Of a DNA stretch of 31,747 bases, positions 3,550-29,032 are shown piece by piece; position 1 is the first letter of the stretch, and each line of letters begins with the position of its first letter. The notes beneath the pieces are model-generated. The model made no database searches. It saw nothing but the letters and a program-made list of their open reading frames with translations, and had not been told where the DNA came from. This DNA is from a virus: the IMG/VR virus record IMGVR_UViG_3300042888_000304, positions 1 to 31,747 of that record. One strand, written 5' to 3'. The position numbers were made by a program, and so were the translations under genes.

Positions 3550-3884
3550 GCGTTTAACTTCGACGGCACTGGTCGATTGGATGACTGCAATACGCGTGAT
3601 GGAACAACTGCTTTAGGATCGTTTGCCCACTGTGTCAACTCGTCAATGATGCGAGTAAACCAATCGGTGGTTGGCACTTTCCTGACATATTCCTCGCGAA
3701 TCCTGCGGGTGGTGTTGTGCCGTATCTGTGCGCTTGTGCGGTACGGGGTGCATTGAATGACAATGCCGTCATCGTCTACCCCAATGAATCCTGTCTTGGT
3801 GTACCCACACAGGAAACCCTCGTTCTTAAGGTAAAACATCACTTGTTCGCGGTGCTGCATTGTGACTCGGGAATCGGTTCTCAT
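3546..3884 (-). CDS. Hypothetical phage protein, 112 aa
   Basis: This soluble protein of unknown function starts MRTDSRVTMQHREQVMFYLKNEGFLCGYTKTGFIGVDDDGIVI. The N-terminal half could be a compact alpha/beta domain and the C-terminal half is basic (IRHNTTRRIREEYVRK, then a helix DWFTRIIDELTQWA). The start overlaps the upstream gene's stop by ATGA, and its own stop overlaps the next start the same way, so three genes (4333, 3884, 3549) are translationally coupled. An alternative start at the second Met (residue 9) is possible. The basic patch would allow nucleic-acid binding, but no motif proves it. Confidence 0.65.
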   Translation of the reverse strand: MRTDSRVTMQHREQVMFYLKNEGFLCGYTKTGFIGVDDDGIVIQCTPYRTSAQIRHNTTRRIREEYVRKVPTTDWFTRIIDELTQWANDPKAVVPSRVLQSSNRPVPSKLNA

Positions 3885-4333
3885 CGGTTGCCTCTCTTTG
3901 TGTTTAATCGGACATGCTCAACAGCGACTGCAAGAATTCGGCGCGACTCAGGGACATGGCCAATAAAGTCAGATACCTGCTCTAGTTCTCGCACGGTGAC
4001 ATCGTTGAGCATTGTTTCAGCCCAATCATCCCACTCCTTCAGTTCTCGTTCTGACGGTGGTGTGCATCGCTGTAGGTCGTCGCGTGTTTGCTCAACCTCA
4101 CGCTCGCCTACCAGGTTCTGAGGGATGAGAGCGCAATACGCTTTGTGTATCGCTGCAATCTCAGGCTTAAAGTCACGAACAAGTCGGTGCTGGCGAATGC
4201 ATGCTTGCAACTTGTCCTGATGCAAAGACCCCCACTTCTCGTTCAATAAACTTGACAGCACAGGCTCAAGTTTCCACTTCGGCCACATCTCTTCCATCAA
4301 CTTTCGGTTGTCCATCCATGTGATTGTTGTCAT
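3881..4333 (-). CDS. Hypothetical phage protein, about 150 aa, first gene of the leftward operon
   Basis: This helical, charged protein of unknown function begins MTTITWMDNRKLMEEMWPKWKLEPVLSS. It contains WGSLHQDKLQACIRQHRL and PEIAAIHKAYCAL, a Trp-and-Leu-rich helical pattern seen in phage proteins of the early or replication region. I chose the ATG at 4333, not the in-frame ATG at 4351. A TATACT -10 element lies exactly seven bases upstream of 4333, with the same spacing and flanks as before the gene starting at 2985, and neither ATG has a Shine-Dalgarno sequence. The mRNA is therefore probably leaderless. If 4351 is used the protein is six residues longer. It heads the operon that runs left to the terminase genes. 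Confidence 0.65.
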   Translation of the reverse strand: MTTITWMDNRKLMEEMWPKWKLEPVLSSLLNEKWGSLHQDKLQACIRQHRLVRDFKPEIAAIHKAYCALIPQNLVGEREVEQTRDDLQRCTPPSERELKEWDDWAETMLNDVTVRELEQVSDFIGHVPESRRILAVAVEHVRLNTKRGNR

Positions 4334-4562: not shown

Positions 4563-4875
4563 TCAACGTACTAGCACGGAGAGCGTTGAGGGAGCATCCC
4601 CGACCGTAGTCGGAGAAGCGTACTTGCACGGTTTCGCGCATCGGTATGCCTGTTGGTCTTTCACCTTGTTTCGGGTGGACGATTCCCTGGTATGCCACTA
4701 CACCACATGCTTTCGCACGGCCATGCGCCGGGATGCTTGGCACATGGACTTACTACGTCCGTTCCCACCAACCTTCGCCAGTGGGTAATACTCCTAACTT
4801 GAGCCGGAGTACCGCAACTTGTGTGCTATGAGGGCTGCCTCGTCGGCGATACCCGTTCGTAATGCGGCTGCACAC
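4563..4875 (-). ncRNA. Candidate large structured RNA, class unassigned
   Basis: Read on the minus strand, this non-coding stretch folds into a chain of helices: GTGTGC/GCACAC (4875-4870 with 4826-4821), GAGG/CCTC (4841-4830), GTACTCC/GGAGTAT (4812-4806 with 4794-4788), CCCAC/GTGGG in inverted order (4785-4764), GGAC/GTCC (4760-4746), CATGTGCC/GGCGCATG (4746-4722), CGTGC-GAAA-GCATG (4719-4706), CCGAC-TACG-GTCGG (4613-4600) and TCAACG/CGTTGA (4589-4563). Three helices contain G-U pairs that become C-A mismatches on the plus strand, and two end in stable GNRA and UNCG tetraloops only on the minus strand, so the minus strand is the RNA strand. At over 300 nt it is in the size range of ornate phage RNAs such as GOLLD or IscB-type omega RNAs (HEARO), but I cannot assign it, and no IscB gene is visible. 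Confidence 0.6.
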
Positions 4876-4892
4876 CTACCACCAAATTGTCG

Positions 4893-5063
4893 TTACTTTG
4901 CGGCTGGAGGCAAGTCTGTTCGGACTTTGCCGTACTTCCGCACATGAACTTTCGAGCGATTCAAGAACTCAGGAGTCAAAGGAATCGTGTCCATCCAATT
5001 TGGATCTCCACGCTTGCCGAATGGCTTCTTGATCTTGCGCCCCTGACTCATGCCGCGAATCAT
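4893..5063 (-). CDS. Possible small basic protein, 56 aa
   Basis: An open frame starting MIRGMSQGRKIKKPFGKRG and ending RTDLPPAAK would make a 56-residue, strongly basic protein. A second ATG (5051) would make it four residues shorter. There is no Shine-Dalgarno sequence, and the frame ends 18 bases before the first helix of the candidate structured RNA on the same strand. The composition looks protein-like rather than random, and a basic RNA- or DNA-binding role next to a structured RNA would be attractive. I recognise no family, and it could be a chance ORF in a regulatory region. Confidence 0.3.
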   Translation of the reverse strand: MIRGMSQGRKIKKPFGKRGDPNWMDTIPLTPEFLNRSKVHVRKYGKVRTDLPPAAK

Positions 5064-5164: not shown

Positions 5165-5433
5165 CCCCGGAAGCGCGGCGCGTAGATCGAAAGATCCGCG
5201 CCGTGTTTATTTCCGGAGCAGGAAATACAGGTTAAAGTGGAATGTTGACAGCATCGACACAGCCTGCAAACTATGTCGATCTGCATAAAGGTTCAAATTA
5301 TTCATAGGTTTATGCAGACAGCAGCGCGTTGCCGCGCCCTGTCCCGTCGGTAGGTTCTGTTACCCCATTGCCTGGAAAACGAGGGGCGTACCTTACGGCC
5401 TTGTGCCTCGTCGCAAGTGGGAGTCTTACCCAC
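5165..5433 (+). ncRNA. Candidate structured RNA or long structured leader
   Basis: The strongest element is a three-part hairpin: CCGGAA/TTCCGG (5167-5172 with 5211-5216), a 10-bp stem (5173-5182 with 5197-5206), a TA bulge, and GATC-GAAA-GATC (5185-5196). Two G-U pairs in the 10-bp stem would be C-A on the other strand, and the GNRA loop exists only on the plus strand. Further helices follow: ATCGACA/TGTCGAT (5253-5280), TCTGCATAAA/TTTATGCAGA (5280-5318), GCGCG-TTGC-CGCGC (5324-5337), GGTAG/TTACC (5349-5364), ACGAGG/CCTCGT (5379-5411) and GTGGG/CCCAC (5417-5433). It has no start codon with a ribosome binding site. It could be a separate small RNA or the leader of the early operon. Confidence 0.45.
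5280..5318. repeat. 10-bp inverted repeat TCTGCATAAA...TTTATGCAGA
   Basis: Perfect 10-base arms are separated by 19 bases. The half site TCTGCATA also occurs at 4491. As DNA it could be an operator; as RNA it is one helix of the plus-strand structured candidate. Confidence 0.5.
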
Positions 5434-5570: not shown

Positions 5571-5624
5571 GTGTGAGTCAAGAGCGCGGCTCAAGACAAC
5601 GCACCTAGTTTGAGAGGACTGACA

Positions 5625-5693
5625 ATGGCAAACCCAAACGACCCATATATCAACGACACCGCCGACGGCGCGGACGACACCTTCAAATTATAA
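5625..5693 (+). CDS. 22-residue leader peptide or small early protein
   Basis: ATG 5625 opens a 22-codon frame, MANPNDPYINDTADGADDTFKL, ending in TAA. It is preceded by GAGAGGA at the correct distance. The whole leader TTTGAGAGGACTGACAATG recurs with one change before the next gene (5700-5720), so the frame has the same translation signal as a neighbouring gene. The product is acidic, with five Asp in the C-terminal 12 residues, and has no recognisable domain. It could be a small host-takeover protein or a leader peptide coupling transcription and translation. Its reality rests on the start signal rather than homology. Confidence 0.5.
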   Translation: MANPNDPYINDTADGADDTFKL

Positions 5694-5717
5694 ACACTCA
5701 ATTTGAGAGGATTGACA

Positions 5718-5972
5718 ATGACTACTAAGATTCAACTGACCGTAACCGAAGCCATAAATAACCCGTACCTTGTTCGCGTTTATTGTGACGTTCTTGTTGC
5801 AACGGCTCGCGAGATCAACGATGCAGTTAGCCAACGCGTCATCCGCGCTCACAACGAACGCGCTTGTGTTGACGTTGACAACGAAGCAGCATTTGACCAG
5901 TGCATTGAAGAAATGGATGCTGCCGAAGGCGCATTTATTGCCATTCATCAGAACACGGTGGTGACCCTATGA
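5718..5972 (+). CDS. Hypothetical early protein, 84 aa
   Basis: This is a small soluble protein of unknown function (MTTKIQLTVTEAINNPYLVRVYCDVLVATAREIND...). It has an alternating beta pattern near the start and an acidic C-terminal half (CVDVDNEAAFDQCIEEMDAAEG). ATG 5718 was chosen over an upstream TTG at 5703 because TTTGAGAGGATTGACA stands directly before it, the same translation signal used for the 22-aa ORF. The stop overlaps the next start (ATGA). It is probably expressed immediately after infection from the promoter at 5543. Confidence 0.75.
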   Translation: MTTKIQLTVTEAINNPYLVRVYCDVLVATAREINDAVSQRVIRAHNERACVDVDNEAAFDQCIEEMDAAEGAFIAIHQNTVVTL

Positions 5973-19486: not shown

Positions 19487-22400
19487 TTACTTCTTCTTGC
19501 TCTCTGCGCTCGGCACTCCGGTGATCAGTCCGCGCATGTAGTCGATTGGGTCGGTCGGCTCGACTGCACCACGCTCAATATCAACCTGGTAACCGATAGG
19601 GCGACCGAGGACAGACACCGGGACTCCGGTTGCATTCGTGATGAGTGTCAACACATCGCGGACATTCCTGCCTGTCAATTCCTTGTCATCGTCTGCAATA
19701 TTGATGATCGCCTTGCCAACCCCAATAGTTGACGCTTCAAGGGAAGTAATGGATGGGCTGCTCGTAATGCGGTCGTCGTATGGCTTGTCGTTAAACGGTG
19801 CAGTTACCGCTGTGAGAGCGGCCGAACCAAACGGAACGAATCCAGCGACATACCGAGCCTGACTACCAAAGAACCAGTCGGCAACATCGTCAAGGTAGCC
19901 GTCATCATCGTCATCCCAGCCCTGACCGAGCGAACGCGAAATAGCGTCTGACATTAGCGCAGGCAATGCAATGCCAAGGATGTAGATCATCATCAACTTG
20001 CCCTTGTTTCCACGCCAACCCAAATCCCTAAACAACATCACAAATTCATCGGCGTTTAGGTTGGCTGTCATATTGAAGAAGCCCATGAACTGGGTCATGC
20101 TATTGTCAAATGGCGTGCCAACTTGAAATCTTGCAACGTCTTCAGGTGACATGCCGCCTTGTGTCAATCGAACGGCAGCGTCAGCCTGTTGCACGGCTTC
20201 GTACTGAGCCTCGCTGTCAGAAATACTGGCATCAATTTCTGACAGCACTTGGTTGTACTTTCCCAACCAAGTAACAATATTGACAATGTTTTGATTTGCA
20301 GTTTGCAGAAAGTAAGCGTGATGATCCGTCCAATTCTTAAACCGCTGATATTTGCTTGGGTTTAGCAAGAGTTCGTTCATTTGATCTTGCAGTACAAAGA
20401 TTTGACTGTTCATGAAATCGTTCATAAACGGCGATAATGACGCGACATATGCCGCAGTCTTCATTGGATTACGAAAGTAAGTTGACGCAGCGTTCTTTAG
20501 TTCGCCCTTGCTTACTAGTAATGCGGCTGGGAACCATCCCGTAAATTGCTGCATGGCATTTCGCACACCACCCATCATTATTGATATGCCAGTGCGCTTA
20601 CGAATTATGTTCCAACTTTTGTCCCACACTGGGTGAATACCAGGCACACTCGTTGTCTGTCGAGCAGTTCGATTAAGCCAAGGCAACAGAACATCATTAA
20701 TGGCAAACGGCTGAATTGCTGTCAAGTTGTCGGCAAATTTACCCCTGCCAATGATTTTCAACACATCCTTGATTGCCGGCTGAATGTGCGCGAATCGCAA
20801 CACGCTGTCAATGTGGCCAGCAATGAGACGAGCGTCCATTGATAGCGGCTTGTCGTATTCAACACGACCCATCGTGAACCCCATACCAGTGCTAGGCATT
20901 GAAGCGCGGAAGTCCGCTTCAAGTTCTTCCATCTTTGCTTGGCGTTGTGCATCGCGCACAATCATTGCATCTGTCTTTGCGGGTACATATCCACCTCGAT
21001 ATGTGCCAAAGCGATTAGTAAACGACTTTGCTTCAATCTCGTTGAAGTAGTAGCCGTACAGGTCGCGGTGCGCCTTCTGTGCAATTGGCTTGATTTCCTC
21101 AAGCAGATCCCATGTTGCTTGCAGGAACTCAAAGTCTTCCTTGGTCAGTTTGCCCTCGCTGATCATGCGCTCAACAAACGCATCCCACCGCGAGGTATCA
21201 AGTGTGCCGTCTTCGTTGAGTGAACCCCATCCGCGACCAAGAAGCAACTTACGCAAATTGCTCAGGTTTCCCATGTGCATTAGCGCACCAAGTAACTCAG
21301 CCTTGCCGTTGCCGCCGTTGCCAACGCCAAAGGTGTAGTCAAGTTCATCAGACCTAATCTTGCCAACAGGCAAATCGACCTTGTCAAGCAACTCTTTATA
21401 TTTCTTGACATACTTATTCCTAGCAATCTTGTACTCGGTGACCGCGTTCTTGACTGGTCGCCAAATGTACTTCGTTGCTGGGCCGACAGTACCAGATTCT
21501 TGTGGGCCGTCAAATCTTCGCGCCCAGTTTTCGACACGCTGAAGCACTGCACCAGCAGACATCAAATGTTGAATTCGCTTCTGATTCTCAGTCAATGCTT
21601 GCTTTAATCCAAGTGCCTCTTTAGGTATTCCAATTTCTTCAGTTCGTACAATAAGTTCACCCTGAATCTGTGCGACTGACACCATCTTGCCGGCAATCTC
21701 TGCTTGCTTATCACGGCGAGACTGCATCCACAATGCGTCAACCACCTCGCGCATCATGCGGAACTCAGACACCGTGAGCGTTTCGTGGTTGCCACCAGCA
21801 CCAACCCGTTGTGACATTTCAATGATTGGCTTAACAGCCTCGTACATCTCAGGGTTGTACGCTTGCAACTTGTCCGTGTACGCCGACGGCAACTTGTCGT
21901 GCTTGCCTAGCCCGTAGAACGCAAGGATTGAACGAGCAGCGTCAACCAAGTCCATGTTGCGATTCTTGGCGATCTTCTCGTCAGCCTTGAAGAACCTTCT
22001 AAAGTCCTTGAGTGCCTTGTCAACTTCCTCAAGCGCAGCGGTAGAAACCTTGACCAATTGGTTCTGAACTACTTGCGCCTGTTTGGCGCGAATGACCACC
22101 TGTGCCGGCTCGCGGTTCCCGTACTTTGCAGCGAACGCATCCTGACGATCCTTGGCAGCGGTAGCAGCCTGGTCGCCCTTCTTGGTGGCTTCGGCAACGG
22201 CAGTTGCCTCGTCAACCCCAGCAGCGATCTGCTCGTTGTAGGAACGGGTGTAGGAGGTCTTACGAGCCTGTTCAGGAGTCTGACGCTGCTTGTAGGCATC
22301 GGCAGCATCTCGGGCTGCACGGGCCTCTGCGGCGGCGTAATTGCTCGGTCTGATGTTCTCAATCTTCTGTGCGTTGACAATCGTGCTAGCAGCCTGCTGT

Positions 22401-25400
22401 GCAGCGTCGATCATTACACGGACAGGTCGGGTGGCACTTGCAACGAATCGAGCCTCAACACCAATGAAACGCTCGCGAGCCTCATTGTGAAGTGCCTTCT
22501 GTACTTGCACCTCTATCTCAGCAGGGGTGTTCATGTCCCCGTACTCAGCAAGCATGCGAGCGTCGAGCCTGCTGTCAACCTCTTCCTTGACAGGCTTGGC
22601 AGCGAGAAGCGCAAGAACCAACTCGTCACCGCTCTTGAAACCAAACATCTCGGCGACCATGTCGGGGTGCAAGCCATCTTCTGACAGCATTCCAAACTTG
22701 CCATATCCCAACTTAGACAGGTTCTCAGCAGGGATCATCGACTTGACAATCGCTAGGTTCAACTTGTACTTGTCGCTGAAGACCACCATTTCGCCGTTTG
22801 CCACTCGACCCTTGCCAGTCTTAAGGACTGACATCGCCATGTACACAGGCTCGGCTGCAACCTCCTCAGCAATGTCGCTACGCATCTTGTCGCGGATGTC
22901 ATCGTGCTTGGCCTGCATTTCCTTGAGCAGTCGAGTACGGGCGTTTGACAGCCATTCCATCTGACGAAGACTTGCCTTGGTCAAGTCAGTCACGGACTGG
23001 TCGTGCGCTTCCTGCACCATCGCCTGGTACGCAGCCCACCGTGCATCGTCGTATCCGGACTGCTCTTGAGTCAAGAACAGCGGTGTCATGTTGTTGACAG
23101 ACTCCGCGTATTTGATTTGCTTCTCGGTTGCCAACATGCGATCCATCACCCCACGAATCTCGGGTGTCAGCATTGGCAGGTCTTCGCCAAACTTCTCACG
23201 GTAAATGGCGTTGAGTTCATCGCGAATATTCTTGTAAATTGCTCGTAACCAAGCAGAGAATCGGTCGAACACACCCTGCATCTCAACGCTCGGTGACTTG
23301 CCTTCAAACAAATAGATTTCGTGGTTGTAAGCAAACGACTCCCAATACTTGCGTTGCTCCTCAAACGTCATGGCATTCCACGCCGCAAGGTCTTTAATGC
23401 CAAGCCAGTCAAATATGATTTGCAAGTCAGCCGTGATTTGAGGAGGCGCACCAGGCTCGTTGGCAATATTTATATATGTCACCATATAGAAATGTGCCAT
23501 CTCATGCAGGTATGACGATAGATCAGCAGCCGTGTTCAGCGTAGTAATAAACGTGCTGAGGTCAATCGTTGCACGCGGTTTGCCGGATGGCATGGCTTGT
23601 TCAAGGATGCCACCATTGGCAATATTGCTCGTTGCCTTTTTCTGAACGCGGACTGCCGCATCTTCTGATTTAGCAACCTTGCCATCTTTGTTGGAATACT
23701 GCCCGAAATAGGTCGGGTCGTACACCATAAACACCACATCCGGTTCGCCATTGTTGAACTTGGCAAACGTCTTCTTGTCCCAGCCTTCAGGCTTGCGCCC
23801 CTCATCCCATCGCAGTCTTGCCACAGCGCGGAAGCCGTGCGGCGCGTACAGATAAGGAAGCACCGTATCAAATGCATCTAGTCTGCGTCCACCTACAGAC
23901 ACAGCCATTTGCATGAGGGCATGACCAACCGCTGCGTCAGACATTGAGAACACAGAAACAATGTCGTCGCCCTTCAATGCAAATCCACTTAAAGCATCTT
24001 CAGATACAAACAAACGCATGTCAGCGTATTCCTCAACGGTATACGCATAGACAGACGCGCCGAACTCGCTCTTTGATTTGCTTTCTGTAATCAGTCGGTG
24101 AAACGCTATTGGCGATTTTTCTGACTTCTCTAATTCGTGGAACTTAGGAGTGTCAAATGGACGCTTTTCACCGCCGGCTGCTGCGAGTGCGTTTCGTAAT
24201 CTTCCCTGCGGTTGAAACAGCGAGACAACTCTAGCGCGAATTAGTTTTACCAGCCGAGGCTTTGTATTTGTCTTACTGCTGCTTCGGGTGTAAGGGTCGG
24301 GTGATCCCGCAATATTGCCGCGACTGGCCCGGTCATTGCGAATGACGGCGGCTCCATTGAACTGCCGTTTTTCATTGTCAGAGAATCCTCTAGTTGCTGC
24401 CGTGTTACGGGCTTCAACGGGGGAGCCACTTTTCTCTTGTAGTCGTGATTGTCTTGATCGCTCATTGTTGGATTCTCGCTGTAGTGTTTGTGAAATCTTC
24501 TCGTTTGAAACACCAGCAATTCGCGCAACATCCGCTGCTGCGTTGGCGTAGTCAGGTGCTTCATCATCAGCATACCCTTCGATATCTTCCTCATCTATCG
24601 TAATATCTTCTTTTGCAGTCTCATAAAGTCGCTTCTCTGCGTACCACAGGGCGGCCTGTAGGTCTGCCATAGTGAGTTCTGCGTATTCGGGCAATTGCTG
24701 TAATTGCTGAAGAATCGTTGTAAAGATGCCACGAATGCGAACGCGCTCGCCTGGGCCGGCTGGTGCTTCCTTCTGACCGTCAAGGTATTTGGCGAGTCCA
24801 TTACCTGCCTTGCGAACTTCTTGCCCAGCAAAGGTTTCATTCATCTTTGCGCGAACTTCTTTGTCCATACTTGCCTTCTGAATCACAGAAGAAAGTGCAT
24901 CGAAGTCAACGCCACTGCCGGCTTCAACAGCATCAATGACCGCTGTTTGCTTTGGAACTGCTTCACGCAATATGGAAGCCATAGAAGCGCGTTCGTCTTG
25001 AGTGAGCGCAGTGATGACCGTTTGTAATCGCGTTCGTGCATTCTGTGTTTGCACTGGCATTGGCATAATCAATGTGCCAGTCCATCGACCCCATGTACGA
25101 ACTAGCCAACGATCCATTGTCAGACTTCGGAAATCGCCGTACAGATTGCTGAAGAAACCATTGCCAATCTTTGGGCCAAGTACGGCAGCACCCTTGACTA
25201 CCGTGCTTGCGTATTCGCCGCCCGAATCAGTATCGGCAACGATGTACTTCAATTCTTGGATGGTGTATTCAGTCTGAGCAAATCGACGTAGGTTGTCAAT
25301 TCCCCAGGCATCTCGCAATGTGTTGAACAAACTAAGTGAATTGTTGATTGCTTCCTGTGATGTTCCAGCAGCCAAATCTGATGGCATCTTGCCGTCACTC

Positions 25401-28400
25401 TTGTATCGTCGATAAACCATCTCGGCAAGTTCAAAGTTCTTGCCAACCTTAATTCCATTAGACGTAACTGCCAACGCCCATGTAAACGCAAAGCGAGCGT
25501 TCTCGTCTGTCAAAATTTCCGGATGCACCAACGCCATTACAGCGAGTGCTTGGCGCGTTTTCTCGTCATACCAACCAACTGAATTGGGGTTTTGACGCAG
25601 CGCGTACAGAGCATCACGAAGACCAACACGCGTCAAATATTCAGTAGTTTGCGGAGTATCTATAAGAAGATCGACACCGGAACCACCAGCAAGTGTGGTG
25701 GCTTCTTTTTGCATCTCTACTTTAAGATCGCGCCCACGCTCCCACGCACGACTAGTTGCTAGTTTGGCAACAGAATCAAGAGATATGGCATCATCAATTG
25801 CTGTCGGAATGTTTGGTTGCGATTCAGCAGTGGCAACGGTGTCATCGCTTTCTTGAGAAGCCTGTTCATTTATTGCGTTTGCGTCTGCCTTTGCCGCTTG
25901 TTCAAGAACCTGCGGTGCTACCTGCTGGCGAGACAATGAAACCAATGCGCCAATTTCGTCCGTTGATTTTGCTGATCCAAACACATCAATCTTGTTTGAG
26001 TCAGTTGTGAAATACAACTTCTCGCCATCGGGCATGACAAACACAATGCCATCGCTGCCGTTGGCAACCATCCGATCCATTGCTGCCTTTTTATTTTCGT
26101 AGAACTTCTTTGGATCAGTGACAACCTCAACGGTTGGATTCTCCATCCTGACCTGTGCGCCAAGAACCTCATTGGTTCGCTCAACTTGCGCTCCGGATAC
26201 CTCGCTCCACAACTCTTTCAACTTGAATTCGTTTGCTAGTCGTGGGAACAATTGACGGTATTCGCGCACCATTTCTTGCGCGGCGTAGTAAACACTCTTG
26301 TCATCAGCGACATCGGACAGGCCTTCGGCAGTAAATTCAACTTCGTTTAATTCAGAACCGTGGTAGTCAAAGGAAACCTTTTGCTCTGCTTCTGTCAACT
26401 TGCTTTCAATACTTTGAATGCGCTTGTTCAACGCAGCAGCAAGCGCGACAAGTTGATCGTCCTTTACTTGTTCCTTTGTAAACTTTGTTGGCCGCAACAT
26501 GGCATAACGATTGGATGCTTGTTCTGAATCGTTGGTAAACCAAAATCCCTTTAGCGGGTCGGTAGACATTGGAGCAAGACCAAACCGTGATCGCTCGGCT
26601 GCGCCAGTGTCAATCTTTGTCGGATCAAACTTTGTAAACCCACCAGTGCGTGTTCCGTGAAACGCTGAAATTGTTACCGGCTTGCCTTCAACAAATTCGT
26701 ACGTCTTAGATTTTTCGTCGGTGATTACATCAACTTTGACGGCTTGTTCAAGCATTTGCTGCTGAGTCATTTGCTCCGCAGCAGCCTGGACAGCAGACTC
26801 AAATGCCTTGTTTGCGGTGTCCATGTCACCGCGACCTTTAAGTTGGCGGTCATACGCCATTTCTTCTCGGAATTGATCTACGACATATGCAAGACTTGAC
26901 GGTGCTTCATCAGAATCAATAAGACCTTCAATTGTGTCAGCAAGATCACTTGTATTTCCGTAGTCTTCTCCATCAAAATAATTCTTCCATGTTTCCGCAA
27001 GCACCGGATACAACGGCTGCGGTTGCATTGCCGCTTGCTCAAGCGGGGCGGCTGCTGGTGCTGCCTGTCCTTCGCCAATTACCTTTGAGCCATACTTGTT
27101 GTGCCAATCAAGCGGAGTCATATTGAAACGAGCCGACATTACTGTTGCAACAGCAGATGCCACAGAAGCCATTGACCGCGATTCTGACTCCGTGTACCTG
27201 CCAGTAGCAACCAATTGAGCGGTGACGCTGTCGGCTACGGCCTGTGCGCTTTGGTCAATAGCAGCGTCAGCCTTCATCAACTCCATTGCCGATTTCTTCA
27301 TCTCCTCGACAATCTGCTCACGCTCTTTGACGTATTGGTTGTTCTCGGCAATTGACATGTCGTTCGGGTCGAACCGCATGTGTTCTTGCAATGCTTGACC
27401 AAACGCAATGTCGGACAGACGGGCTGCGTACACGGATGTTGGGAACGCAAAGTCAATACCGCTCATGCCCTTGGCATCGGCAATCGCCTTAGTCACGCCT
27501 GGCAAGATGGTTTCGAGTTGCTCGGCAGATACATTGTTCTTAGCCATCGCCTCGCGCAACTTCTCAATGTCAATGAACAAAGTGTGGTTGGCTGTTCCAC
27601 GCGCCTTCTCCTCATACCACTCTTGGTATGAGCGCGGGTTACGACCCTTCAACTTCGATTCTTTTGCGTTCTTGTCGATGTCCTTGAAGAACTGGCGCGT
27701 TGCCTTTGCCTTACGGGCGCGGCGAGCATCACCGATGAAGTTTGCGCCGGGGAGGAACGCACCCATGATTGCCATTCCCTGTCCAACTTCTTTGAATGTC
27801 TCTAGAAATTGTTTCGCTAGTTCGGCGCGACCTTTTTCAGACTTCCACTTCTCCTCGTACAGTGGATCGGTTGCCAACATCGCCATCTCTTGGACATAAG
27901 TACTAACAGCATCTTGGGCAAGTTCTGTTCCTACTTCGGTTGTAACGCCAATTCCATACGACTGCAAGAATCGTTTAAATACATCAAGCATTCCCGTTTG
28001 CTTCAGTGTGTCAATGACTTGTCCTGCAACCTCGCGCTTAATCAACTTCTTTGCTTCGCCAGTCACAAACTTGAGCGGAAGAATTTCAAGTGCAGCCATA
28101 ATTGCCCCACCAATTGGTGCAGCAACAAGAGCCGTGTCTTCAGGAATGCCATCATCAAGCATTTCAACAAATAAGTTGCCGCCTTCAATTTGAAATGACT
28201 GCACGACTCCGGCAGACATCACTCCCATTCCAGCACCGGCAACCATTCCCGGAACCATGCCAATACCACCAGTTGGCGCACCAAGTATCAACCCACCCGC
28301 TACTGCGCCGTACAACGCCATCTCTGCTTGCTTGGGAATCGTTGACTCAATGTTGCCTTCAAGCGCACCGAAACTTTCTAAAAACCCACCACTTGCACGA

Positions 28401-29032
28401 AGTTCATCCAATTCCTGTTTTTGTTGCGCTGCCTTTGCTCGCAGCGATTCCGGAATTGGAACGCCGCTTGCCTTTGCAGCCAACATATCCATGCCAGTAA
28501 GTCCAAGTTCAGTTCCTTTGTACCCTCTTGCTCGTCCAATCAGAAACTCTTCAATCCACGACAAGTCAGGGTTGATCTGCTCACCAGATTCCATGAGGTT
28601 TGGCAGGTCATCGTGCGCGACGGCAGCGAAATCCTTGTTTGCCAACATACGGGCAAGCACAGGGTCGCGCTTAAACAAGTCAAGTTGTGCCAATCGGTCT
28701 GTAGCCAAACGCTGCTCAAGCAACTGCTTGTTGCGAGCGGCAATCTCAGCACCAACCCCAGTCTCGTATCCAAGTCGCTGCGCTGCTGCTGCCTCTTCGG
28801 CGTTGCCAGCAGCGGCCCTAGACATCGACAGCATCATGGCATTGTTTTGTTGGTCAATAATTTGGCGCGTTTGCTTTCTAATCTTGTCAGCAAAGTCATT
28901 GCCAGACGAAACAAAGTCAACCTGTTGCGTCATTGTGTTTGGCAACGCGACAGATCCGGAACTGTTCAATGGATCAATAGGATTTTGTGATGGGGCGTAT
29001 TTGAAACTTGGATCGGTAATATCTGTGTCCAT
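19487..29032 (-). CDS. Giant polyvalent internal virion (DNA-ejection) protein, 3181 aa
   Basis: This fills the place of T7 gp16 in the ejection-protein cluster. N-terminal helices are followed by a Gly-rich hydrophobic region (about 238-320). An ADP-ribosyltransferase-like PolyVal module has SAFHGTRTGGF (789-799), GFWFTN (829-834) and NGSDGIVFV...SNKIDVFG (991-1019). Residues about 1150-1320 form a helical module containing GPKIGNGFF and DRWLVRTWGRW. A possible GNAT-like module (about 1655-1772) has GGRRLDAFDTVLPYLYAPHGF. A zinc-metallopeptidase motif, YLHEMAHFY (H1843, E1844, H1847), has E1898 as possible third ligand. The remainder is long coiled-coil and helical, with a hydrophobic stretch near 3015-3030. 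It would enter the host with the DNA. AGGAAC precedes the ATG, which overlaps the upstream stop (TAATG). Confidence 0.88.
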   Translation of the reverse strand: MDTDITDPSFKYAPSQNPIDPLNSSGSVALPNTMTQQVDFVSSGNDFADKIRKQTRQIIDQQNNAMMLSMSRAAAGNAEEAAAAQRLGYETGVGAEIAARNKQLLEQRLATDRLAQLDLFKRDPVLARMLANKDFAAVAHDDLPNLMESGEQINPDLSWIEEFLIGRARGYKGTELGLTGMDMLAAKASGVPIPESLRAKAAQQKQELDELRASGGFLESFGALEGNIESTIPKQAEMALYGAVAGGLILGAPTGGIGMVPGMVAGAGMGVMSAGVVQSFQIEGGNLFVEMLDDGIPEDTALVAAPIGGAIMAALEILPLKFVTGEAKKLIKREVAGQVIDTLKQTGMLDVFKRFLQSYGIGVTTEVGTELAQDAVSTYVQEMAMLATDPLYEEKWKSEKGRAELAKQFLETFKEVGQGMAIMGAFLPGANFIGDARRARKAKATRQFFKDIDKNAKESKLKGRNPRSYQEWYEEKARGTANHTLFIDIEKLREAMAKNNVSAEQLETILPGVTKAIADAKGMSGIDFAFPTSVYAARLSDIAFGQALQEHMRFDPNDMSIAENNQYVKEREQIVEEMKKSAMELMKADAAIDQSAQAVADSVTAQLVATGRYTESESRSMASVASAVATVMSARFNMTPLDWHNKYGSKVIGEGQAAPAAAPLEQAAMQPQPLYPVLAETWKNYFDGEDYGNTSDLADTIEGLIDSDEAPSSLAYVVDQFREEMAYDRQLKGRGDMDTANKAFESAVQAAAEQMTQQQMLEQAVKVDVITDEKSKTYEFVEGKPVTISAFHGTRTGGFTKFDPTKIDTGAAERSRFGLAPMSTDPLKGFWFTNDSEQASNRYAMLRPTKFTKEQVKDDQLVALAAALNKRIQSIESKLTEAEQKVSFDYHGSELNEVEFTAEGLSDVADDKSVYYAAQEMVREYRQLFPRLANEFKLKELWSEVSGAQVERTNEVLGAQVRMENPTVEVVTDPKKFYENKKAAMDRMVANGSDGIVFVMPDGEKLYFTTDSNKIDVFGSAKSTDEIGALVSLSRQQVAPQVLEQAAKADANAINEQASQESDDTVATAESQPNIPTAIDDAISLDSVAKLATSRAWERGRDLKVEMQKEATTLAGGSGVDLLIDTPQTTEYLTRVGLRDALYALRQNPNSVGWYDEKTRQALAVMALVHPEILTDENARFAFTWALAVTSNGIKVGKNFELAEMVYRRYKSDGKMPSDLAAGTSQEAINNSLSLFNTLRDAWGIDNLRRFAQTEYTIQELKYIVADTDSGGEYASTVVKGAAVLGPKIGNGFFSNLYGDFRSLTMDRWLVRTWGRWTGTLIMPMPVQTQNARTRLQTVITALTQDERASMASILREAVPKQTAVIDAVEAGSGVDFDALSSVIQKASMDKEVRAKMNETFAGQEVRKAGNGLAKYLDGQKEAPAGPGERVRIRGIFTTILQQLQQLPEYAELTMADLQAALWYAEKRLYETAKEDITIDEEDIEGYADDEAPDYANAAADVARIAGVSNEKISQTLQRESNNERSRQSRLQEKSGSPVEARNTAATRGFSDNEKRQFNGAAVIRNDRASRGNIAGSPDPYTRSSSKTNTKPRLVKLIRARVVSLFQPQGRLRNALAAAGGEKRPFDTPKFHELEKSEKSPIAFHRLITESKSKSEFGASVYAYTVEEYADMRLFVSEDALSGFALKGDDIVSVFSMSDAAVGHALMQMAVSVGGRRLDAFDTVLPYLYAPHGFRAVARLRWDEGRKPEGWDKKTFAKFNNGEPDVVFMVYDPTYFGQYSNKDGKVAKSEDAAVRVQKKATSNIANGGILEQAMPSGKPRATIDLSTFITTLNTAADLSSYLHEMAHFYMVTYINIANEPGAPPQITADLQIIFDWLGIKDLAAWNAMTFEEQRKYWESFAYNHEIYLFEGKSPSVEMQGVFDRFSAWLRAIYKNIRDELNAIYREKFGEDLPMLTPEIRGVMDRMLATEKQIKYAESVNNMTPLFLTQEQSGYDDARWAAYQAMVQEAHDQSVTDLTKASLRQMEWLSNARTRLLKEMQAKHDDIRDKMRSDIAEEVAAEPVYMAMSVLKTGKGRVANGEMVVFSDKYKLNLAIVKSMIPAENLSKLGYGKFGMLSEDGLHPDMVAEMFGFKSGDELVLALLAAKPVKEEVDSRLDARMLAEYGDMNTPAEIEVQVQKALHNEARERFIGVEARFVASATRPVRVMIDAAQQAASTIVNAQKIENIRPSNYAAAEARAARDAADAYKQRQTPEQARKTSYTRSYNEQIAAGVDEATAVAEATKKGDQAATAAKDRQDAFAAKYGNREPAQVVIRAKQAQVVQNQLVKVSTAALEEVDKALKDFRRFFKADEKIAKNRNMDLVDAARSILAFYGLGKHDKLPSAYTDKLQAYNPEMYEAVKPIIEMSQRVGAGGNHETLTVSEFRMMREVVDALWMQSRRDKQAEIAGKMVSVAQIQGELIVRTEEIGIPKEALGLKQALTENQKRIQHLMSAGAVLQRVENWARRFDGPQESGTVGPATKYIWRPVKNAVTEYKIARNKYVKKYKELLDKVDLPVGKIRSDELDYTFGVGNGGNGKAELLGALMHMGNLSNLRKLLLGRGWGSLNEDGTLDTSRWDAFVERMISEGKLTKEDFEFLQATWDLLEEIKPIAQKAHRDLYGYYFNEIEAKSFTNRFGTYRGGYVPAKTDAMIVRDAQRQAKMEELEADFRASMPSTGMGFTMGRVEYDKPLSMDARLIAGHIDSVLRFAHIQPAIKDVLKIIGRGKFADNLTAIQPFAINDVLLPWLNRTARQTTSVPGIHPVWDKSWNIIRKRTGISIMMGGVRNAMQQFTGWFPAALLVSKGELKNAASTYFRNPMKTAAYVASLSPFMNDFMNSQIFVLQDQMNELLLNPSKYQRFKNWTDHHAYFLQTANQNIVNIVTWLGKYNQVLSEIDASISDSEAQYEAVQQADAAVRLTQGGMSPEDVARFQVGTPFDNSMTQFMGFFNMTANLNADEFVMLFRDLGWRGNKGKLMMIYILGIALPALMSDAISRSLGQGWDDDDDGYLDDVADWFFGSQARYVAGFVPFGSAALTAVTAPFNDKPYDDRITSSPSITSLEASTIGVGKAIINIADDDKELTGRNVRDVLTLITNATGVPVSVLGRPIGYQVDIERGAVEPTDPIDYMRGLITGVPSAESKKK

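Follow-up and report, generated by a model that had tools for sequence, protein, structure and literature searches.

What is encoded by the DNA that separates the early genes from the packaging genes in the virus record IMGVR_UViG_3300042888_000304 of IMG/VR? The window analysed here is this entire record of 31,747 nucleotides (nt), a podovirus-like genome which, according to PHROG and Pfam matches, carries an Sf6-like small terminase, a large terminase, an Erf recombinase and tail genes. Between its rightward early genes and a leftward unit running from a gene of about 150 amino acids (aa) to the terminases, a first-pass annotation had noticed a stretch without a confident gene (positions 4875-4563) and had read it as a structured RNA on the minus strand, over 300 nt long and perhaps new among phage RNAs. 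A search of related phages combined with a check for covariation, as proposed there, did find homologues and compensatory changes. It is nearly certain that the minus strand at positions 4566-4903 encodes the core of a structured noncoding RNA belonging to a new family of phage RNAs, a judgement which covers existence, strand and family jointly. The RNA has at least three forms and is positionally tied to packaging genes.

A conserved RNA core without a gene

Relatives of the locus were collected via two neighbouring proteins. In four of them (L006, L058, L037 and L016) the core is 98-100% identical and the flanks diverge; in L059 its identity is 92.6%, though the large terminase of L059 is only 75% identical. 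The region first proposed was the right one, with shifted borders: the homologous core extends from 4903 to 4566, and one of the forms described below (type B) reaches about 100 nt further 5'. Neither L059 nor L096 has, next to the core, the open reading frame (ORF) of 56 aa that abuts it in the window.

Folding of the single sequence gave -117.2 kcal/mol for the minus strand of 4563-4875 (z -1.95, equalled by 4 of 100 shuffles) versus a z of -0.10 for the plus strand. Energy alone weakly favours the minus strand and is suggestive, at the borderline; unlike energy, we consider the comparison of homologous sequences decisive for a structured RNA. Substitutions within the core preserve pairing (G-U to A-U, G-U to G-C, U-G to C-G and, at 4686/4674, G-C to C-G), and indels in L058, L059 and L122 disrupt its ORFs. 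Because pair-keeping substitutions and frame-breaking indels are found together, we regard the element as a conserved noncoding RNA with the minus strand as sense. A coding explanation was rejected on account of these indels: short ORFs exist in the RNA region, none is a credible gene, and the conserved protein frame which the first-pass annotation had named as counter-evidence is absent.

Covariation and structure

The features of the locus are compiled in Table 1. In the 5' domain, compared between type A and the loci L222 and L221, 7 of 12 pairs are compensated, among them five of the six pairs of P1, a helix missing from the minimum-energy fold of the single sequence. All cells of this domain (100%) are paired versus 84% after shuffling; its covariation score was reached by none of 500 shuffles, with slid controls near zero, and RNAalifold and a direct count are in agreement. 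Three of the helices drawn from the single sequence (4812-4788, 4746-4722 and 4719-4706) hold in type A, by consistent substitutions only, and the fold differs in part from the one first drawn. In L059 a G-U pair of helix 4812-4788 becomes A-U and a U-G pair of helix 4746-4722 becomes C-G; in L058 a G-U pair of helix 4719-4706 becomes A-U.

Members of the family realise P2 with the arms UACUCC:GGAGUA, CCUCCC:GGGAGG, CCGCCC:GGGCGG, GCUCCC:GGGAGC or GAUCCC:GGGAUC. The hairpin at 4764..4785 changes from A-U to G-U, U-G to U-A and G-U to G-C in L059 and L058, and loses one outer pair in L122. Homologues of the hairpin with the GAAA loop read GGUUGC:GCAACC in L222 and GCGCCACC GAAA GGUGCGC in type B. 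P4 occurs across type A, bridging sequences, type B and type C as GGG:CCC, GCGU:ACGC, GCGG:CCGC, GCUGG:CCAGC, GUUGG:CCAAC and GGCGA:UCGCU; the P4 arms assigned for L213 did not pair and were excluded from the support. Family-wide, P2, P3, P4 and P5 each exist in at least six different complementary versions, and compensatory changes are exemplified by GUGUGC:GCACAC, UCACGC:GCGUGA and UCGCGU:ACGCGA. The family alignments were partly read by hand.

For 24 type B RNAs RNAalifold reports 59 pairs, 12 of them with compensatory changes. In the curated helices of this form 96.5% of the cells pair versus at most 90.5% over 500 shuffles; the number of compensated pairs, 11, is not above the shuffles, whose maximum is also 11. 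In the L030 group the assigned H9 arms failed to pair and were excluded from the support. With one mis-assigned helix left out, the well-aligned helices hold 62 G-U versus 2 A-C cells, which confirms the RNA strand. The 5' extension of type B consists of a stem, P0, preceded by a strong hairpin, and P0 varies as GCAUG:CAUGC, GCAUC:GAUGC and GCAGC:GCUGU. A candidate promoter upstream of type B (TTGCAT-N17-TATSAT) was rejected, as it represents the covarying arms of P0. Antisense to the type B RNA there are promoter-like motifs (TTGACA-N16-TAGAAT at L030:7191-7218, TTGACC-N16-TACAAT at L142:2146-2173); they coincide with the arms of the first helix and may be due to chance.

Table 1. Features of the RNA locus and its surroundings in the window
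Feature	Position	Strand	Basis or remarks
Structured RNA core, type A, 338 nt	4566..4903	minus	Homologue identity and frame-breaking indels
5' domain	4821..4875	minus	P1 4875-4870/4826-4821; inner helices 4854-4852/4834-4832 and 4847-4845/4839-4837
Hairpin P2, conserved loop CGGC..AGG	4788..4812	minus	Varied complementary arms in members
Type A hairpin CCCACUGGC / GUUGGUGGG	4764..4785	minus	Consistent changes in L059 and L058
Type A hairpin CCAUGUGCC / GGCGCAUGG	4721..4747	minus	U-G to C-G in L059; G-C to G-U in L122
Hairpin with GAAA loop (GUGC GAAA GCAU)	4703..4721	minus	G-U to A-U in L058
Hairpin P4 (GGG..CCC, loop with GUCC), then CGAAA	4673..4687	minus	Helix variants across forms
Conserved block GGUGAAA ... 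GAUGCGCG	4635..4665	minus	Degenerate pattern matches only A and B members in the first 181 loci
Hairpin P5 (CUCCGAC UACG GUCGGGG)	4598..4615	minus	Seven different fully paired helices in A, B, C and bridges
Near-identical copies CCGUGC(A/U)AGUACG flanking P5	4567..4631	minus	Sequence; copies at 4631-4619 and 4579-4567
56-aa basic ORF, ends at the 5' edge of the RNA	4893..5063	minus	HNH genes occupy its place in other loci
Downstream gene, about 150 aa (or 156 aa if started at an upstream ATG)	3881..4333	minus	-10 box TATACT at 4346-4341
Small terminase, Sf6-like	2095-2559	minus	PHROG and Pfam; downstream of the RNA, same strand
Large terminase	776-2098	minus	PHROG and Pfam; downstream of the RNA, same strand
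Large hairpin upstream of the RNA locus	5167..5216	.	Dyad in the sequence; equivalents in relatives

Three forms of one family

Every close relative with sequence at the locus carries one of three forms: type A (the window) of about 340 nt, type B with a core of about 280 nt, or type C of about 470 nt. Of the three, type B occurs most widely and has diverged most. None of the forms was found directly upstream of the downstream gene in two more distant loci, L086 and L176. What the forms have in common is a 3' core consisting of P4, the GGUGAAA and GAUGCGCG blocks, P5 and CGCUC-CC; the 5' part varies by form. The direct repeats that flank P5 in type A have an analogous pair in type C (L005), which suggests an internal duplication in the 3' domain.

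Alignment of type A with type C scores 37.3 versus a shuffle maximum of 27.6, and with type B 28.4 versus 21.1 (300 dinucleotide shuffles). Furthermore, two sequences bridge A and B: L222 is matched over its full length by the A profile (6e-10) and also by the B profile (1e-12), and L221 is matched by the B profile (1.6e-36) and has its 5' domain in common with A. A degenerate pattern was derived from the shared 3' block, GAAAN{1,4}GGTRARAN{12,26}GCGCGNNNCCG; since this search pattern does not include the 5' domain, the bridges link A and B without circularity. With a profile that combines A, B and the bridges but contains no C sequence, type C is found at the right place with expectation values (E) of 2.7e-5 to 1.4e-4. 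Because the bridges match both the A and the B profile and the profile blind to C finds C, the three forms are one family. The covariance model R1, made from the type B core, failed to find A or C.

At least 181 loci, with at least 73 distinct hit sequences, carry the RNA, many of the loci being overlapping pieces of shared contigs; the carriers are many freshwater (lake) phages. Applied to the first 181 loci, the degenerate pattern matched members of A and B only; in the viral collection it yielded at least 110 new loci, so the family is larger than the loci listed. Four matches to an exact 18-mer pattern (L089, L091, L094 and L097) were dismissed as chance or coding, L232 as coding, and three hits in bacterial genomes (L292-L294) as chance. 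Neither the 50,697 phage records searched nor plasmids contained a convincing match, and cultured phages gave none.

Genomic context

In 135 out of 135 listed loci that show both, the RNA and the large terminase gene (terL) are on the same strand, with the RNA 1.4-4.5 kb upstream; these loci overlap and are not independent of each other. The genes between the two vary. The RNA is followed by another terminase family and a Mu-like portal in L197 and L242, and by related portal or head genes in L262 and L267, as judged by family names read from the translations. This second terminase module means that the RNA is not tied to one motor.

The gene immediately downstream codes for a protein with HQDKL and WPKW motifs that has no Pfam or PHROG match; its longer version of 156 aa is without a homologue in the genome contigs. 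A TATACT box is located exactly 7 nt before the ATG in 36 of 36 distinct upstream regions, many of which also have a TTGACA -35 box. Because of this spacing the gene is probably leaderless and has its own promoter.

Directly 5' of the RNA, three kinds of HNH endonuclease genes occur in some type B and type C loci, ending 13-94 nt away (13 nt in type C, about 90 nt in type B). Most loci, the window among them, lack such a gene. The encoded proteins are small, with HNH or HNH plus AP2 domains only, and no RuvC match was found in them. In two type C loci (L025:6000-6680 and L041:5400-6300) HNH genes of different families occupy one spot; their products have identical first 12 residues (MATKLKTQISQE) and a common C-terminal end (R-I/V-T-x-K-Y/N), which looks like a swap confined to the central part of the ORF. 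The 56-aa ORF of the window has few nucleotide differences among relatives and no Pfam match, and in L059 only a remnant of it exists.

Three further observations concern the surroundings. In the long hairpin at 5167-5216, CCGGAA...TTCCGG encloses GGCGCG..CGCGCC, the plus strand has a T-rich tail, and relatives keep the dyad with a different sequence. At the start of the rightward operon a near-identical leader, TTTGAGAGGA(C/T)TGACAATG, is present twice on the plus strand (5612-5630 and 5703-5721), each copy preceding one of two successive small genes. Finally, a polyvalent protein of 3181 aa (19487-29032, minus) contains an LPD22 domain and weakly matches an ADP-ribosyltransferase (ART-PolyVal).

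Possible functions

Judged from sequence comparison, we tentatively favour, at somewhat less than an even chance, a stand-alone late RNA that acts in trans as a scaffold. It would be made as a transcript of its own in the late/packaging region and act as a folded scaffold at the late stage, when heads fill, either in complex with a protein of phage or host or, like GOLLD and ROOL, by self-assembly. The HNH genes would then be optional hitchhikers homing beside a conserved RNA gene, and they may help the forms to replace one another. Such a scaffold fits because the downstream gene has a separate promoter, the forms are exchanged as a whole, conserved blocks are unpaired, and the RNA is independent of a particular terminase. 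A wider proposal, namely a new RNA class for virion assembly or DNA packaging, or for late-gene control, serving several terminase lineages in three cassette forms spread by HNH genes, appears rather doubtful to us. Several points weigh against a stand-alone scaffold. Neither a promoter of the RNA itself nor an intrinsic terminator behind the core was identified, so that read-through into the downstream genes is possible. Moreover, the fixed synteny upstream of late genes, counted over overlapping loci, also fits a cis element.

The main rival is indeed a cis-acting late leader, which we consider unlikely: the RNA would form the 5' end of the packaging transcript and act on RNA polymerase or on the downstream mRNA, for instance by put-like antitermination. 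Such a leader would account for the missing terminator and for a position that is invariably ahead of the packaging genes and in their orientation, also where the terminase family is exchanged. However, a conserved sigma70-type promoter and a leaderless start lie between the RNA and the next gene, and with this separate promoter the RNA need not be a leader. The genes between the RNA and terL vary, the RNA is much larger than put, and exchange of forms together with HNH insertion 5' of the RNA is unexpected for a minimal nascent element. An RNA that is part of the DNA-packaging motor or docks onto it, like the pRNA of phi29, would be compatible with a location upstream of the terminase genes in all loci showing both; it is nevertheless quite improbable given the two different terminase/portal modules, the Sf6-like small terminase and the lack of a pRNA match in Rfam. 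In addition, relatives with a TerL 68-77% identical were not matched by the type B core model, a model that would miss other forms.

The chances of the remaining explanations are small. An element acting at the DNA level (an origin, a packaging site or a cruciform) would suit a control region near packaging genes with large palindromes adjoining, but is very unlikely in view of the RNA-type strand asymmetry of G-U over A-C cells and the long unpaired conserved blocks. A role as guide or scaffold RNA of the adjacent endonuclease, similar to OMEGA or HEARO RNAs, is suggested by the three kinds of HNH genes ending close to its 5' side; since these genes are optional and without RuvC, we give it even less credit, the more so as HNH types vary while the RNA does not, and as HEARO is not matched. 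Structured RNA next to homing-type endonuclease genes is also the classic arrangement of an intron, and GAAA-type loops are present; a ribozyme or group I-like element is however highly improbable, because the RNA lies in intergenic DNA, splits no gene and matches no group I or II model. A chance fold or a cryptic coding region, for which the modest folding energy and the short ORFs could be cited, can hardly be credited against compensatory changes, frame-breaking indels and near-identity across phages with diverged flanks.

If the RNA takes part in packaging or late control, an RNA component would be added to a step that is regarded as the work of proteins alone in most tailed phages. The natural variants with a common core allow structure-function questions to be asked directly, and the alignments can become an Rfam family.

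Comparison with known RNAs

The first-pass annotation had been unable to match the RNA to GOLLD, HEARO or any other class, and the database searches agree. Rfam 15 gave no match at E up to 10 for the window region and types B and C, nor at E up to 1 for divergent B sequences and one bridge; with nothing at these permissive thresholds, membership in a known Rfam family was rejected. The covariance models of GOLLD, ROOL and HEARO and of group I and group II introns did not match, nor did that of phi29 pRNA in the window region. Thus, by any test run, the RNA is a member of neither GOLLD nor HEARO. There are no tRNA genes in the window or in 19 related loci, and no IscB, IsrB or TnpB at the locus, where the first reading had likewise seen no IscB or TnpB.

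To our knowledge, few phage RNAs of such size and complexity are known. The pRNA of phi29 (174 nt) is likewise a phage RNA positionally linked to packaging functions; the new RNA differs in occurring with two terminase modules and together with a small terminase subunit. The put RNA of HK022 is much smaller than the new RNA and works in cis within early transcripts. It resembles the new RNA as a structured phage RNA ahead of an operon; as a nascent element it keeps RNA polymerase from pausing and terminating (PMC9378689), whereas the operon downstream of the new RNA has its own promoter. With the HEARO or OMEGA RNAs of IscB and IsrB the new RNA shares a structured length of about 300 nt and, in some loci, a nearby HNH gene; it differs by the absence of IscB/IsrB (no RuvC), by an HNH gene that is optional and upstream, and by the lack of an Rfam match.

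The closest parallels in general character are GOLLD and ROOL, large phage RNAs of unknown function that occur near tRNA islands and form RNA-only assemblies (PMC12286853). As in the new RNA, a conserved 3' region is combined with a variable 5' region in GOLLD; however, GOLLD is often longer than 800 nt and is found close to tRNA islands, whereas the new RNA has about 340-500 nt and is found near the terminase, without tRNAs. ROOL, also a large structured phage RNA (PMC12286853), is longer (659 nt in the solved example) and near tRNA islands, and the new RNA matches it neither in sequence nor in structure. Because no model or database entry matches, we regard the RNA as a new family among the large structured RNAs of phages in the broad sense, one that is smaller than GOLLD and ROOL, widespread in freshwater phages and fixed beside the packaging genes.
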